Shown here piece by piece: positions 35,833 through 43,543 of a stretch of DNA of 48,839 nucleotides. The translations under genes and the position numbers were made by a program. The stretch lies in contig NSHR01000010.1 of assembly GCA_002737115.1 (NCBI GenBank), positions 20,906-69,744 of the forward strand, read 5' to 3'. The stretch's first letter is position 1; each line of letters begins with the position of its first letter. The notes below the pieces were generated by a model. It was not told the DNA's origin. It made no database searches and was given only the letters and a program-made list of their open reading frames with translations. Source of the stretch: Gemmatimonadota bacterium (GTDB lineage Bacteria; Gemmatimonadota; Gemmatimonadetes; Gemmatimonadales; Gemmatimonadaceae).

Positions 35833-37323
35833 CTAGTAGCGGTAGTGCTCCGACTTGAACGGGCCCATCAAATTCACGCCGAGATAGTCGGCCTGCTCCG
35901 TGTTCAGCGTCGTCAGCTTCACGCCCAGCTTGTCGAGGTGCAAACGCGCCACCTTCTCGTCGAGATGCTTCGGCAGCACGAACACCGTCTTGCCGTACTT
36001 CTCAGCGTTGGCGTGCAGTTCGAGCTGCGCCAGCACCTGGTTCGTGAAGCTCGCCGACATCACAAAGCTCGGGTGACCCGTCGCGCAGCCAAGGTTCATC
36101 AAGCGACCTTCGGCCAGGATCAGGATCGAACGGCCATTCGGCAGCACGAACTCGTCGTACTGCGGCTTGATGTTGATGCGCTTCATCCCTTCGACCTTCT
36201 TGAGACCGGCCATGTCGATCTCGTTGTCGAAGTGGCCGATGTTCGCCACGATCGCCTTGTCCTTCATGCGACCCATGTGCTCGACGGTGATGACGTTCTT
36301 GTTGCCCGTGGCCGAGATGAAGAGGTCGGCCGTGTCCACGACGTCTTCGAGCGTCGTCACCTGATAGCCTTCGAGCGCCGCCTGCAACGCGCAGATGGGA
36401 TCGATCTCGGTGATGATCACGCGCGCGCCCTGTCCCTTGAGCGCCTGTGCACAGCCCTTGCCCACGTCACCGTAGCCCATCACGACGGCGATCTTGCCGG
36501 CGAGCATGACGTCGGTGGCGCGATTGAGCCCGTCGATGATGCTGTGACGGCAGCCGTACAGGTTGTCGAACTTCGACTTGGTCACAGCGTCGTTGACGTT
36601 GATGGCCGGGAAGGCCAGCGTGCCGGCGCGCTCCATTTCGTACAAGCGATGCACGCCCGTCGTGGTCTCTTCGCTCACGCCACGGATGCCGGCCAGTACC
36701 TTCGTCCAACGGCCCGGGTTCTTCGCCTGTTCGGCGCGCAGCAGGTCGAGAATCACACCCCACTCTTCCGGCTCGTTGTCGCTGTCGAAGCCCGGGATCA
36801 CACCGCTCTTCTCGTACTCGGTACCCTTGTGCACGAGCAGCGTGGCGTCGCCACCATCATCAAGCAACAGGTTCGGACCCGTGCCGTCGCTCCACATCAG
36901 CGCCTGCTCGGTGCACCACCAGTATTCCTCGAGCGTCTCACCTTTCCACGCAAACACCGGCGTGCCCTTGGGCTGCTCCACCGTGCCGTGCGGCCCAACG
37001 GCCACCGCGGCCGCAGCGTGATCCTGCGTGCTGAAAATGTTGCACGACACCCAACGCACATCGGCGCCGAGTTCGACCAGCGTTTCGATGAGCACGGCCG
37101 TCTGCACTGTCATGTGCAACGAGCCCATGATCTTCGCACCCTTGAGCGGATGCGTGCCGGCATACTCGGCGCGCAACGCCATGAGCCCCGGCATCTCAAA
37201 CTCGGCGAGACGGATTTCCTTGCGGCCCCACTCGGCGAGCGCGAGATCACGCACGGCGAAGGCGGGACGAGCGAGCGACGCCAAAGGCGCGGCGCCCTTT
37301 TCAGTGACGACGACGGTAGACAT
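35833..37323 (-). CDS. ahcY: Adenosylhomocysteinase (SAH hydrolase)
   Basis: A 496-residue S-adenosyl-L-homocysteine hydrolase: SAH + H2O to adenosine and homocysteine, with tightly bound NAD. Blocks: [53 protein letters not shown] with catalytic Lys, the NAD fold [20 protein letters not shown], the [20 protein letters not shown] block and the C-terminal NAD-binding YRY. The ~40-residue insertion present in many bacterial forms is seen around residues 170-210. The start ATG (37323) abuts the stop of the ArsR-methyltransferase gene with no gap, so the two are cotranscribed and probably coupled. This links the regulator to SAM/SAH turnover. No SAH riboswitch is visible upstream; none is possible in a zero gap. 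Confidence 0.97.
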
Positions 37324-38304
37324 TTACGAGTGAATCCTGAGGGAAGAGTCGGAACGGGAACCCACGGCGCAGCGCGCCGTGGCGGAGAACAACGCAGGGC
37401 CGGTGGCATCGGGATCCACCGGTAACGGGACATAGCGCACGTTGGTAAAGCCGGCGTCATGCAGCCACGCCGTGAGTTCGAGCGGCGCGAAGCCCAGCCA
37501 GACGTGACCCATCTGCTCGCGATAGCGCTCCTGCGCATGCGGGCGCATATCGGCGATCAGCAGGCGGCCGTTTGGACGCAGTACGCGCCGCACATCGCGC
37601 AGCGCGCGCAGCGGATCGGCCACATGGTGCAGCACCAGCATCAACACGGCCGCATCCAGCGACGCATCGCCCAACGGCAGCGCTTCGAGCGTGCCCTCGG
37701 ACAACGTCACGTTACTGCAGGCCGCCAGTCGCGATGACGCGGCCGACAACATGGCCGGCGACGCGTCGATTGCGTGCACATGCGCCACGTGCGGCGCGAG
37801 TGCGGCGGCCAGCGCGCCGGTGCCGCAGCCGAGATCGCCCACCACCAACGTCTCATCCAGCAGCGCCAGCGCGGCGCTGAGGTCGGCACGCGCGCCGAAC
37901 ATGTCGTTGCGCAGCGCATCCCATTCGGCGCTGGCGGTGGCGAAGAACGCCTGCGTGCCGGCGCGACGGGCCGCGATCACGGCGTCGATACGCGCCGCGT
38001 CCTGCAACGACGCGGGCGTGCTCCCCAAGGCCGATCGCACGATCTCCCACAACGCCCGCATGTCAGCGTCGAGCTGCGGATTCCGGCGATACCAGCGGCT
38101 CGCCCCTTCGGCCCGCGAGGCGATCCAGTCTTCGTCGGCCAGAATCTTGAGGTGCCGGCTTACCGTGCTCTGCGGCAGCTGCAGCGCGGTGGCCAGTTCA
38201 CCGACGGTGAGCTCCTGTCGCTCCAACGCCGAAAGCAGCCGACACCGGGTGGCGTCGGCGAGCTCGACCATATGGTCGTGAATGGCAAGGCGTGGCGAGG
38301 TCAT
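37324..38304 (-). CDS. ArsR-type regulator fused to a SAM-dependent methyltransferase (SahR-like)
   Basis: A 326-residue fusion. Residues ~1-90 are a winged helix of the ArsR/SmtB kind (TVGELATALQLPQSTVSRHL, then KILADEDWI); the metal-binding Cys pair of arsenic sensors is absent, so it is not a metal sensor. Residues ~135-300 are a class I methyltransferase fold: VVGDLGCGTGALAAALAPHV (motif I), AIDASPAMLSAAS (motif II), LVLHHVADPLRALRDVRRVL, then a terminal substrate region. Being transcribed with ahcY, it probably senses SAM or SAH and represses the operon, as described for SahR-type regulators. A palindromic operator lies in its own promoter (38315-38338), implying autoregulation. It may retain methyltransferase activity; this cannot be judged from sequence. 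Confidence 0.9.
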   Translation of the reverse strand: MTSPRLAIHDHMVELADATRCRLLSALERQELTVGELATALQLPQSTVSRHLKILADEDWIASRAEGASRWYRRNPQLDADMRALWEIVRSALGSTPASLQDAARIDAVIAARRAGTQAFFATASAEWDALRNDMFGARADLSAALALLDETLVVGDLGCGTGALAAALAPHVAHVHAIDASPAMLSAASSRLAACSNVTLSEGTLEALPLGDASLDAAVLMLVLHHVADPLRALRDVRRVLRPNGRLLIADMRPHAQERYREQMGHVWLGFAPLELTAWLHDAGFTNVRYVPLPVDPDATGPALFSATARCAVGSRSDSSLRIHS

Positions 38305-38314
38305 AGCGGGTTAT

Positions 38315-38338
38315 ATCCGTGCATCCGGATGAATGGAT
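38315..38338. promoter_or_regulatory. Palindromic operator upstream of the ArsR-MT/ahcY operon
   Basis: A 24-bp imperfect palindrome with 20 of 24 matching positions, centred on the perfect core CATCCGGATG and flanked by ATCC at one end and GGAT at the other. It starts 11 bp before the ArsR-methyltransferase ATG and overlaps its presumed -10 region, as expected of an autorepressor site. It also lies 73 bp before the mlaE ATG on the other strand. Confidence 0.7.
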
Positions 38339-38362
38339 AGCAATATGGAGCTCCTTCGTCAA
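38334..38362 (-). promoter_or_regulatory. Putative sigma70-type promoter of the ArsR-MT/ahcY operon
   Basis: On the reverse strand TTGACG (38362-38357), a 17-bp spacer, then TATCCA (38339-38334). The -35 is near consensus; the -10 is imperfect. The palindrome at 38315-38338 covers most of the -10. Confidence 0.5.
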
Positions 38363-38411: not shown

Positions 38412-39218
38412 ATGCTACCATTGCCTTCAATGCTTGATCTTCCCCTCGCCGTCGGCCGGTCCACCCGATTGTTCCTCGATCAGATCGGTGCCGGCACACG
38501 ATTCGTGGTGGCGACGTGTCGTGCGATGCGCGACACGAAGGATTGGATCCCCGAGTTCAGCACGCACGCCCGGGTTCTCGGCGTGGAGTCACTGCCGATC
38601 GGCGTCTTCATTGCCCTGTTCACCGGGATCGTATTGGCGCTCCTCGCCAGCTATTCCGTGGGCGATCTCGTGCCGCCGTATTTCGTGGGCACGTTGGTCC
38701 AAAAAACGATCACCCTCGAACTCGCCCCGGTACTCACCGGTCTTGCCCTGGCCGGACGCGTTGGCGCCAATATCGCCGCCGAGTTGGGCACGATGCGCGT
38801 GACTGAACAAATCGATGCACTCGAGACGCTCACCTTCGATCCGATGAGCCATCTCGTGGTGCCGCGGGTCCTGGCCTCAACGATGATGTTTCCCGTCGTG
38901 GTAGCCGTGGCCATGCTGGCCGGACTGCTGTCGGGCTGGATGGCGTCGCTGCTGTTGCTCGACATCACCACGCCGCAATTTCTGAAGGGCGCACGCATTT
39001 TCTTCACCGACTTCGACGTACGCTATGGCCTGGTGAAGTCGGCTAGCTTCGGGGCGGCGGTAGCGCTGATCGGATGCCGGGCCGGTTTGAACACGCAAGG
39101 CGGCGCACAGGGTGTCGGACGCGGCGCCACGCGTGCCGTGGTGATCTCAGCCGTCATGATTCTCGTGCTCGATGCGTTTTGGGCGCTGGTCTGGCTCTCT
39201 GGCCGTACACTTCGGTAA
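38412..39218 (+). CDS. MlaE-family ABC transporter permease
   Basis: A 268-residue inner-membrane permease of the MlaE/YrbE family, part of MCE-type lipid transporters. Family motifs: ARVLGVESLPIGVFIALFTG, the amphipathic coupling region VQKTITLELAPVLTGLALAG, RVGANIAAELGTMRVTEQID with its conserved Glu, and LVVPRVLASTMMFPVVVAVA. Five or six helices. The ATG at 38412 is taken; an in-frame ATG at 38430 is almost as good. The MCE-domain partner follows after 32 bp, but no ATP-binding subunit (MlaF) is adjacent, so it must be encoded elsewhere. Divergent from the ArsR-methyltransferase/ahcY operon. Confidence 0.92.
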   Translation: MLPLPSMLDLPLAVGRSTRLFLDQIGAGTRFVVATCRAMRDTKDWIPEFSTHARVLGVESLPIGVFIALFTGIVLALLASYSVGDLVPPYFVGTLVQKTITLELAPVLTGLALAGRVGANIAAELGTMRVTEQIDALETLTFDPMSHLVVPRVLASTMMFPVVVAVAMLAGLLSGWMASLLLLDITTPQFLKGARIFFTDFDVRYGLVKSASFGAAVALIGCRAGLNTQGGAQGVGRGATRAVVISAVMILVLDAFWALVWLSGRTLR

Positions 39219-39250
39219 CCCATGAACGCGCTTCTCTTTCTGCACTCCCT

Positions 39251-40264
39251 ATGACCACCTCCCGACGCGCCAGCGACTTTATGGTCGGCGCCACCGTGCT
39301 GGTGGTCACGATCGTGGTCATCACCGCTGTCCTCTGGCTCAAGCAGACGGATTTCCGCGGCAAGACCCGTCATCTCGTGGTGCGCTCGCGCGACGTGGGC
39401 GGCGTGGCACTTGGCAATCCGGTCGTCATCCGCGGTGTGCGCTCGGGACAAGTCGAGTCCATCGCCCTCGGCGAGCGCGGATGGGTGGTGCTCACGCTTG
39501 GCATCGATCGCGATGTTACGCTGCCGTCTGATCCGGTCGTGCTGCTCGCCGCGTCCAGCCTGTTCGGCGAATGGCAAGCTACCATCACCGACGCGACCGG
39601 GTTGCCGGCCGACCGCGAGCTGCGCGCGGCGATCAGCGAGTCGCGTACCTCCGGCGACACGCTGGCGGGAGCGGTGCTTCCCGACATTGCCCAACTCACC
39701 ACTGTTGCCGGCCGTATCGCCGGTGATGTCGCACAAGTTGCCGACCGGGTGCAGGTCGCATTCGACGATCAGGCCGCGCGCGAACTCCGTGAATCGCTCC
39801 GCAACTTCTCGCGGCTCTCCGCGCAGTTGGCCAACACGGTGGCGCTACAGTCGAAGAACCTCGACCAGATCAGCGGCGACGTGCAGCTTGGGCTCACCAG
39901 CATCAACGCGGCGGCGGCGAAGCTGAGCGCGTTTTCATCACGCGTCGACTCGGCGACAAACCGTGGCGAACTGCAAACGATCGTCAACAACTCACAGGCG
40001 GCGGCGAAGGAGCTGCTGACGGCCACGACTCGCCTGCGTGACGTAGCGGTCGGCCTCGACCGCACAGAGGGACGGCTGGCAAGCGCGGTCTCCAAGGCCG
40101 ATTCGGTGTTCGCGAAGGTGAATGCCGGGCGCGGAACACTTGGGCTGATGGTGAACGACCCGGCACTGTATCAGCAGAGTGATTCCCTGGTGCGTGAACT
40201 GCGCGTACTCATCGCCGATGTGAAGAAGAACCCGAAGCGTTACTTCACCGTGCGGGTGTTCTAA
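39251..40264 (+). CDS. MlaD/MCE-domain lipid-binding protein
   Basis: A 337-residue membrane-anchored MCE protein. The single N-terminal helix (VGATVLVVTIVVITAVLWLK) anchors it facing the periplasm; the MCE barrel follows (~35-110: VVRSRDVGGVALGNPVVIRG and VRSGQVESIALGERGWVVL). The remainder (120-300) is a long helical, coiled-coil-like stretch (SLRNFSRLSAQLANTVALQS and so on) that would form the hydrophobic needle in the hexamer. The C-terminal FTVRVF is short. Pairs with the MlaE permease 32 bp upstream. Role: lipid transport across the envelope, direction unknown. Confidence 0.9.
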   Translation: MTTSRRASDFMVGATVLVVTIVVITAVLWLKQTDFRGKTRHLVVRSRDVGGVALGNPVVIRGVRSGQVESIALGERGWVVLTLGIDRDVTLPSDPVVLLAASSLFGEWQATITDATGLPADRELRAAISESRTSGDTLAGAVLPDIAQLTTVAGRIAGDVAQVADRVQVAFDDQAARELRESLRNFSRLSAQLANTVALQSKNLDQISGDVQLGLTSINAAAAKLSAFSSRVDSATNRGELQTIVNNSQAAAKELLTATTRLRDVAVGLDRTEGRLASAVSKADSVFAKVNAGRGTLGLMVNDPALYQQSDSLVRELRVLIADVKKNPKRYFTVRVF

Positions 40265-40809: not shown

Positions 40810-42054
40810 CTAGTTAATAAAGACTGGCACGATGAACTGACAAAACAGCGCACCCACGATCGTCATCGCGAAGCCCCACAGCAGCAGCTGGCGGAACAGC
40901 TGCTTGGTGTCGTGGCCGGTCGGCACGGCCGCGATGCACAGGGCACCAATCGTCGACAGCGGTGACACATCGACCAGCGCCGCGCCCACGTTGATGCTGA
41001 TCGCAATCTGGAGCGGATCGCCACCACCGAGCTTCGCGACCAGTCCCGGCACGGCCGGGAGGAAGGCGGGATACACCACGCCCGACGTGGAGCTGTACGT
41101 GGAGATCAGCCCCGTCACACCGGCAATCACCCCGTTCACCGAGCTCGGCGAGGCCAGCTTCGCCAGCATGGTGGTGAACAGGTCCATGCCGCCCGTCTTC
41201 TCCAAGACACCGATCAGCACGCTCACGCCGCACACCATCACGATCACCGGCCAGGGCACTTGCTTCAGCATAGCGCTGTCGCTGCCGATACCAATCAATA
41301 CCAGTAGCGCCGCCGCGACGAAGGCCGTGAGTCCTGGATTGACCTTAAAGAACAGCACCGCACTCACCCACAGCACGCCCACCGCGAGCGTGATCCAGTG
41401 CGCACGCGTGAACGCCGCATCCTCGGCGTCGACCACGAGCCGCGGGTTACGCAGCATCGCCGGTCCGCCGAACATCGCCCACGCCGCCATCGCCACGATC
41501 GTATGCGCCACGAAGTTCATCACCAAAACCTCCGTGGCGTGACCGCCTAATCCGGCCTTCTCCATCAGCGTCTGCACGATCGCGCCGATCGCACTGATCG
41601 GTGACAGGTTGCCGGCGTTCGCCCCGTTGCCGACCATCAACGCCATCAGCAGCATCGGTGCCTTCGCGCGGTATGCGAGCCCCATCGCGAGTGGGGCCAG
41701 CAGCGCGGTCGTCGCAATCGCCCCCGGTCCACTGGTCGAGATCAGACAGGCCAAGAGAAAAACGAAGGGTGGCAACAGCGCCGTCCGCCCGCGTAGCAAA
41801 CGCACACCATGGTGCGTCACCGCCTGCATCGTGCCGTTGGCCTGCGCGATTCCGAACAACAGCGTGACGCCCAGCAGCGTGAGAAAGAGCGACGACGGAA
41901 ACACCGCCATCAGCTGTTCGACTTTCCAGTCGGCCGCGAACGTCGCGATCCCCCACGCGAACGCGACCGCGAGCACCCCGACGTTAACACGCGACGTCAG
42001 GCTGGCCGCCACCACCAGCAGCAGGGCCAGCAGCGAGAGCAGAGCGGGACTCAT
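40810..42054 (-). CDS. MatC-like dicarboxylate (malonate) carrier
   Basis: A 414-residue polytopic permease with about 11-12 helices, resembling MatC malonate carriers and other ion transporter/DASS-type families. The N-terminal 'LSLLALLLVVAASLTSRVNV', the 'GTMQAVTHHGVRLLRGRTAL' segment, NGANAGNLSPISAIGAIVQT and NVGAALVDVSPLSTIGALCI are its recurring Asn/Ser-rich hairpins. It lies 10 bp downstream of the MatB-like ligase, arguing for malonate or a related dicarboxylate. Other dicarboxylates cannot be excluded. Confidence 0.85.
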   Translation of the reverse strand: MSPALLSLLALLLVVAASLTSRVNVGVLAVAFAWGIATFAADWKVEQLMAVFPSSLFLTLLGVTLLFGIAQANGTMQAVTHHGVRLLRGRTALLPPFVFLLACLISTSGPGAIATTALLAPLAMGLAYRAKAPMLLMALMVGNGANAGNLSPISAIGAIVQTLMEKAGLGGHATEVLVMNFVAHTIVAMAAWAMFGGPAMLRNPRLVVDAEDAAFTRAHWITLAVGVLWVSAVLFFKVNPGLTAFVAAALLVLIGIGSDSAMLKQVPWPVIVMVCGVSVLIGVLEKTGGMDLFTTMLAKLASPSSVNGVIAGVTGLISTYSSTSGVVYPAFLPAVPGLVAKLGGGDPLQIAISINVGAALVDVSPLSTIGALCIAAVPTGHDTKQLFRQLLLWGFAMTIVGALFCQFIVPVFIN

Positions 42055-42064
42055 ACGCGTCGGC

Positions 42065-43543
42065 TCATGCCACCGTCCACGGCGGCAGTAAATGCCGCTG
42101 CACTTTGCCGAGCGCCGTGCGCGGCAGCGCCTCCACCCGTACGAATCCGCGGGGCACCTTGAACGAGGCTAGCTGCGTGCGGACCTGCTGCGCGAGCGCC
42201 TCGAGATTCACCGTCGCATCGCACACGAGATACGCTACCGGCACTTCACCGCGCACTGCGTCCTTCACGCCAACCACCGCTGCCTCACGCACACCCTCCT
42301 GCTCAGCCAACAGCTCCTCGATCTCGCGCGGATAGATGTTGAAACCGCCCGAGATGATCAGATCACTGCGCCGACCGTCCAGCGTGATGTAGCCATCCGC
42401 CGCGCGCACGCCCACATCACCGGTGCGGAACCAGCCGTCCGCGAAGGCCGCCGCCGTGGCATCCGGGCGACGCCAGTAGCCGTCGCATACATTCGGCCCG
42501 CGCACCCACAACTCGCCGCTCGTGCCGTCCGGCACATCCGCACCGGCCTCGTCCACGATGCGCACCACGGTCATCGGCATCGGGAATCCTACCGTGCCCG
42601 GGCGACGCTCGCCATAAAAAGGATTGCTGACATTCATGAGCGTCTCGGTCATGCCGTAGCGCTCCAAAATGACATGGCCGAATCGCTCCCGGAACGCTTC
42701 CATCACGGGGGCCGGCAACGGCGCCGAGCCGGACACGAAGAGTCGCGCGCGCGCGCCGATCGCCGCCGCGCGCGCGGGCGCCACATCGAGCAACCGCACG
42801 AACATGGTCGGGACACCGAAGAACACCGTGGGCTGATACGCCTCGAACCAATCGGCCGCGCGCTCATGCTCGAAGCGTTCGGCCAGACGCATGTGACAGC
42901 CACTGAGCAGCCACACGTGCAGACCGTTCGCCAATCCATGCACGTGAAAGAGCGGGAGCACGGCGAGGTAGCGATCGCTGCCGGTGAATTCCCAGCTGGC
43001 CGTCAGCGCCAGTGCATTCGCCGCAAAGTTACCGTGCGTCAGCACGGCACCTTTTGATGCGCCGGTGGTCCCCGAGGTGTACACCAGCGCGGCCGGCGTA
43101 TTCGCCACACACGGCGCCGTGATCCGCACGGCCGACTGCTGCGCGGCCTCCGCACTTAAGGCTTCGAGACTCCACGACGGCACGCCGGCGGGCAGGTCGC
43201 CCTGCTGGGCAGCGGTCGTGATCACCGCGACCGGCGCCGAATCGCTCACAATGTGCGCAATCTCGCGCTCGCGATACAGCACATTCACCGGCACCACGAT
43301 AATGCCCGTCTTGATACACGCCAACCAGAGATCGATGATCTCGACTCGGTTAGTGAGATAGAACGCCAACCGATCACCAGCCTGCACGCCGCGCGCCCGC
43401 AACGCATGCGCCACGCGGTTACTCCGCTCCTCGAGCGCGCCAAAGGTCAGCGCGAGGGGCTCGCCGGACAAGCCGCTGGCGTCGAGCGCTGGCGTCGCTG
43501 CGCGTCCCAACAGCGAGCGATCATACAATCCGAGAAGTGACAT
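42065..43543 (-). CDS. MatB-like malonyl-CoA synthetase (acyl-CoA ligase)
   Basis: A 492-residue AMP-forming acyl-CoA ligase. The P-loop is YTSGTTGASKGAVLTHGNFA; the core motifs YGMTET and GWFRTGDVGVRAADGYI, the hinge in GRRSDLIISGGFNIYPREIE, and the C-terminal catalytic Lys in PRTALGKVQRH are present. The short length and the GFNIYPREIE block fit malonyl-CoA synthetases (MatB). Its start shares the A of TAATG with the stop of the upstream gene, so translation is coupled. With MatC downstream it would import and activate malonate to malonyl-CoA, for fatty-acid or polyketide building. No malonyl-CoA decarboxylase is in the operon. Other small acyl substrates are possible. Confidence 0.86.
   Translation of the reverse strand: MSLLGLYDRSLLGRAATPALDASGLSGEPLALTFGALEERSNRVAHALRARGVQAGDRLAFYLTNRVEIIDLWLACIKTGIIVVPVNVLYREREIAHIVSDSAPVAVITTAAQQGDLPAGVPSWSLEALSAEAAQQSAVRITAPCVANTPAALVYTSGTTGASKGAVLTHGNFAANALALTASWEFTGSDRYLAVLPLFHVHGLANGLHVWLLSGCHMRLAERFEHERAADWFEAYQPTVFFGVPTMFVRLLDVAPARAAAIGARARLFVSGSAPLPAPVMEAFRERFGHVILERYGMTETLMNVSNPFYGERRPGTVGFPMPMTVVRIVDEAGADVPDGTSGELWVRGPNVCDGYWRRPDATAAAFADGWFRTGDVGVRAADGYITLDGRRSDLIISGGFNIYPREIEELLAEQEGVREAAVVGVKDAVRGEVPVAYLVCDATVNLEALAQQVRTQLASFKVPRGFVRVEALPRTALGKVQRHLLPPWTVA

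Follow-up and report, generated by a model that had tools for sequence, protein, structure and literature searches.

What governs the gene for adenosylhomocysteinase in Gemmatimonadota? The enzyme encoded by ahcY clears S-adenosylhomocysteine (SAH), the spent methyl donor, and in the window examined here (the whole 48,839-nucleotide stretch of Gemmatimonadota DNA that was analysed) the gene follows one for an ArsR-type DNA-binding domain fused to a methyltransferase fold. The question raised by this locus is whether the fused protein controls ahcY, through which DNA site and in response to which ligand.

An ArsR–methyltransferase fusion in one operon with ahcY

The regulator gene (37324..38304, minus strand) encodes a protein of 326 amino acids with matches to Pfam PF01022 and PF08241. 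An ArsR winged-helix domain (residues 17-58; 38131..38256, minus strand; HTH_5/ArsR profile match, 3.6e-14) contains the recognition helix PQSTVSRHLKIL (residues 44-55; 38140..38175, minus strand), which co-varies with the operator described below, and is followed by a class I methyltransferase-fold domain (residues 157-250; 37555..37836, minus strand; Methyltransf_11 match, 8.8e-25). The SAM/SAH motif of the latter, DLGCGTG, and the acidic residue D180 are nearly invariant among orthologs, C160 and T162 excepted, and the DxGxGxG pattern is kept across them; H256, H267, W128 and W269 are also conserved. A search of the regulator alignment for an ArsR-type metal site found none, the sole frequent cysteine being C160, within the SAM motif. 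With no conserved Cys/His ligands outside that motif, a metal-sensing ArsR/SmtB identity was rejected. The first-pass annotation, which described a non-metal ArsR winged helix fused to a methyltransferase fold, is borne out by the domain matches and the cysteine survey. The predicted structure of the regulator has a mean pLDDT of 64.6 (low confidence) and was left out of the evidence.

The stop codon of the regulator gene (37324-37326) directly touches the ATG of ahcY at 37323, so that the abutting arrangement originally reported is correct. ahcY itself (35833..37323, minus strand; TIGR00936, 616 bits) is the predicted regulated gene. On the other side, a divergent mlaE gene (38430-39218) and mlaD homologs occupy 38430-40264 of the window, starting about 90 bp from the operator and sharing the intergenic region. 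Further along (40810-43543), a MatC-like dicarboxylate carrier lies beside an AMP-binding acyl-CoA synthetase, possibly a pair for malonate uptake and activation.

Orthologs of the regulator are encoded by 97 of 200 Gemmatimonadota genomes, about half of the sample, at a cut-off of E ≤ 2e-75 that is separated by a sharp gap from the next ArsR or methyltransferase matches (paralogs, E ≥ 6e-39). Wherever the contig is of sufficient length, ahcY follows the regulator on the same strand (around 80 ortholog neighbourhoods were checked besides further loci; the contig in G165 ends too soon for ahcY). The genome contig collection yielded just weak matches outside Gemmatimonadota, mostly to the methyltransferase domain only. 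As for an alternative means of ahcY control, no SAH riboswitch scored above cut-off in the 200 genomes. A search of open-licence papers gave no account of an ahcY-linked regulator or of the SAM-II riboswitch in Gemmatimonadota. Across the phylum, ahcY falls into length classes (model spans of ~1400, 1310 and 1250 bases); regulator-linked genes belong to the long class, and some genomes with a long-class ahcY (f5 g53) lack the regulator.

The operator and its co-variation with the recognition helix

Read along the minus strand, the promoter region consists of a -35 hexamer, TTGACG (38357..38362), 17 bp, the 26-bp palindrome TATCCATTCATCCGGATGCACGGATA (38314..38339; consensus TATCC-N4-ATCCGGAT-N4-GGATA), 9 bp and the ATG of the regulator gene. 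The palindrome opens with TATCCA (38334..38339, minus strand), which is both the left end of the operator and the -10 hexamer of the promoter as we read it. A 24-bp palindrome with 20 of 24 matching bases had previously been placed over the -10 region; it is confirmed as the exact inner part of the operator, whose symmetry rises to 22 of 26 bases (11 of 13 pairs) once extended to 38314-38339, and is also conserved across relatives.

On the window sequence alone, the palindrome is only moderately unlikely: when the 130-bp promoter region was shuffled by mononucleotide 20,000 times, 28 of the shuffles held one as good, and the whole window holds five of such quality. It is not a chance occurrence, however, since 90 different sequences upstream of the regulator contain the same operator, ATCC-N4-ATCCGGAT-N4-GGAT, in which ATCCGGAT and the CGGAT on the right hardly vary. 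Nearly all regulator orthologs have the operator upstream, and in 48 of the 97 relatives TTGAC is found 16-18 bp before its -10 hexamer. At the ahcY loci of ten genomes that lack the regulator, operator scores are at background (L181, which begins at a contig end, is uninformative).

Helix and operator also change together. In family f5, PQPTVSRHL or a similar recognition helix replaces PQSTVSRHL, and the operator has an altered core, for example CATATTCGAATTTATG. Among about 96 tallied sequences, in which some genomes are counted twice via two collections, all operators paired with a Q-S/A helix score at least 13/16 and all ten paired with a Q-P helix score 12/16 or less. Because the P-helix proteins cluster together in the tree, we regard the co-change within family f5 as a single evolutionary event. 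Even so, it speaks for the palindrome being the target of the regulator itself, and nature here offers a set of recognition helices with their matching operators.

A second site at metF-metH and a proposed mechanism

A relaxed scan of complete genomes identified a second perfect operator in two of them (G129 and G073), upstream of metF-metH and followed by a SAM-II riboswitch (RF00521, 44.9 bits). SAM-II (SAM_alpha), described from alphaproteobacteria only in PMC4239095, exceeds the cut-off in 119 of the 200 Gemmatimonadota genomes and is widespread there upstream of methionine genes, metH and metF-metH among them (for example, L193 1534-1609). Operators scoring 15-16/16 are present at 15 of the 64 SAM-II loci inspected, all in genera g2 and g8; each of them lies upstream of metF-metH, 5-10 bp ahead of the aptamer. 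At the remaining 49 loci the score is 10/16 or less. Genus g16 has two SAM-II–metF-metH loci without an operator. The second operator links the regulator with the SAM cycle on grounds other than homology.

The first-pass annotation had proposed searching the genome for the operator core near met and SAM genes. Such a site exists in other genera, at metF-metH; in Gemmatimonas no second operator was found at a met or SAM gene. In the present genome, which is 57% complete, the core CATCCGGATG occurs eight times, but the full operator within two mismatches only at ahcY, and in the Gemmatimonas genomes G074, G039 and G172 the 26-mer matches only the ahcY operator. Beyond that operator, G074 has no site within two mismatches of the 24-mer. 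The single two-mismatch site in G039 appears to fall in coding sequence, and a one-mismatch site in G019 adjoins a response-regulator-like gene rather than a met gene. With off-ahcY sites either absent or not met-linked, a larger Gemmatimonas regulon was rejected. The SAM-II of Gemmatimonas precedes genes that we take to be metY or metX; its metF lies within a long ORF of ~640 amino acids, which may be a homocysteine methyltransferase–metF fusion like that read in G080.

We consider it probable that the protein is a SahR-like autorepressor of the regulator–ahcY operon that binds the 26-bp operator, with SAH in the methyltransferase pocket relieving repression. A regulator dimer, as we infer from the ArsR fold, would bind the palindrome, which overlaps the -10 and the start region, and, if repression is indeed the sign of its action, block RNA polymerase. 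A build-up of SAH would fill the methyltransferase-fold pocket and cause the repressor to release the DNA; ahcY would then be made and SAH cleared, and the drop in SAH would restore repression. A SAM/SAH-type sensor with autoregulation had been predicted at the outset, and ahcY synteny, the operator over the promoter, co-change and the metF-metH operator, all of them computed here along with the domain architecture, promoter geometry and intact SAM/SAH pocket, lend that prediction support, SAH being the predicted ligand. Three points favour SAH over SAM: the universal target, ahcY, removes SAH; at the second target SAM-II already reads SAM; and the SahR homologs respond to SAH, although an identity to SahR of only 31-37% makes it less than certain that the effector is shared.

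The same repressor might instead respond to SAM as a co-repressor, or to the SAM:SAH ratio, as has been suggested for SamR of Xanthomonadales. A pocket with a general SAM/SAH fold and an identity to SahR close to the level reported for SamR (~30%) would both suit this reading, but induction by SAH gives direct feedback logic to a regulator whose universal target consumes SAH, and where the regulon has two targets the riboswitch already reads SAM. We therefore think SAM, or the SAM:SAH ratio, an unlikely effector. Much less probable is that the methyltransferase domain catalyses methylation of a small molecule or protein, with the helix-turn-helix secondary. The SAM motif is intact, and the conserved H256, H267, W128 and W269 could serve catalysis; against this, the invariable operon with ahcY, the conserved operator and its co-change with the helix point to a protein that regulates by binding DNA, and no candidate substrate gene was seen travelling with it. 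Still harder to credit, despite a divergent mla operon starting only ~90 bp away, is that the palindrome serves mlaE (38430-39218) or some other factor, given that the operator recurs before metF-metH, changes with the helix of the regulator and is absent at ahcY in genomes without it.

Under SAH-relieved repression, the same repressor would act on metF-metH in genera g2 and g8, where the SAM-II riboswitch would add a second, SAM-dependent check. We rate as about evenly balanced the proposal that the metF-metH promoter there is a two-input methylation-index gate, in which a DNA-bound repressor that SAH releases and, 5-10 bp downstream, a SAM-II riboswitch in the transcript would together confine methyl recycling to times when SAH is abundant and SAM scarce. 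The one precedent found is the hom-metXC operon of Oceanicaulis alexandrii, which combines SAM_alpha with SahR (PMC4239095). With repressor site and SAM-II in tandem on metF-metH in 15 genomes, it can be tested directly whether the SAM/SAH balance is sensed.

Relationship to SahR, SamR and Leptospira

The closest point of comparison is SahR, reportedly described by Novichkov in 2014. This ArsR-family repressor of Proteobacteria responds to SAH, acts on SAM-cycle genes and has a palindrome of 20 bp, and SamR is a distant relative of it in Xanthomonadales (Leyn 2014, PMC4239095). Sensing of SAH and repression of genes of the SAM cycle are reported for SahR homologs (PMC4239095, PMC8877191), and the SahR regulon comprises sahR, ahcY, metF/metH and metK. 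The SahR-type proteins from Sinorhizobium, Rhizobium, Sphingomonas and Methylobacterium have the same two domains, an ArsR helix-turn-helix and a C-terminal class I methyltransferase domain, with metF downstream and the operator ATAAAGATATCTTTAT. Control of ahcY and metF/metH, autoregulation and a palindrome near the promoter are likewise predicted for the Gemmatimonadota regulator, and its predicted regulon is one of SAM-cycle genes (the regulator and ahcY always, metF-metH in 15 genomes).

The two differ, however, in several respects. The recognition helix is PQSTVSRHL in the Gemmatimonadota regulator and SQPRISRHL in SahR, and the operator is ATCC-N4-ATCCGGAT-N4-GGAT rather than the alpha-type ATAAAGATATCTTTAT; nor is it of the gamma/delta type, ATC-N10-GAT, which is known by description. 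The Gemmatimonadota regulator is always in one operon with ahcY, its single target in Gemmatimonas. By best match and tree the window protein is not a SahR ortholog: it is 31-37% identical to SahRs, all those compared being alphaproteobacterial, against 44-51% for a metF-linked paralog in G135 (L136 2448-3437). In the tree, whose SahR sequences are likewise alphaproteobacterial only, the ahcY-linked proteins make up one side of a branch (support 99/97) and the metF-linked paralogs fall with SahR. The metF-linked paralogs of G135 and G080 have the helix SQPRVSRHL and the same architecture, and coexist with the ahcY-linked regulator. SahR-type paralogs (that of G080 is at L135 2507-3547) are metF-linked or divergent from a homocysteine methyltransferase–metF fusion. 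Judged by sequence, a true, metF-linked SahR ortholog is also present in Gemmatimonadota.

SamR, like the Gemmatimonadota regulator, is distantly homologous to SahR; it has a palindrome of 24 bp and acts on methionine genes. By description, however, SamR is linked to metH1/metH2 and controls biosynthetic genes rather than ahcY, and its consensus, also compared by description, is ATC-N10-GAT. The Gemmatimonadota operator has two centred ATC/GAT pairs, with spacings of 2 and 18. A plasmid record of Leptospira interrogans (L153 3926-8831) has, side by side, an ArsR-methyltransferase gene, ahcY, a gene for a small 4Fe-4S protein and metH. The regulator–ahcY order and near-abutting genes are shared, but the operator before the regulator, GGATATCAAGATATCTTGATATCC, is SahR-type, identity is ~31% and placement in the tree is unsure (long branch).

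As the orthology and operator-type comparisons both separate it from SahR proper, the ahcY-linked regulator is best called a SahR-like subfamily: a known kind of regulator that would work like SahR, on a separate branch with its own operator. The original suggestion that SahR-type regulators extend to a new phylum stands in so far as a SahR-like regulator is present, and needs revising in that it forms a separate subfamily with a different operator, alongside an apparent true SahR ortholog. Two SahR-type subfamilies with distinct DNA targets can thus be separated inside one phylum, and a regulator, operator and regulon of the SAM cycle are assigned for a largely uncultured phylum of soil and water.
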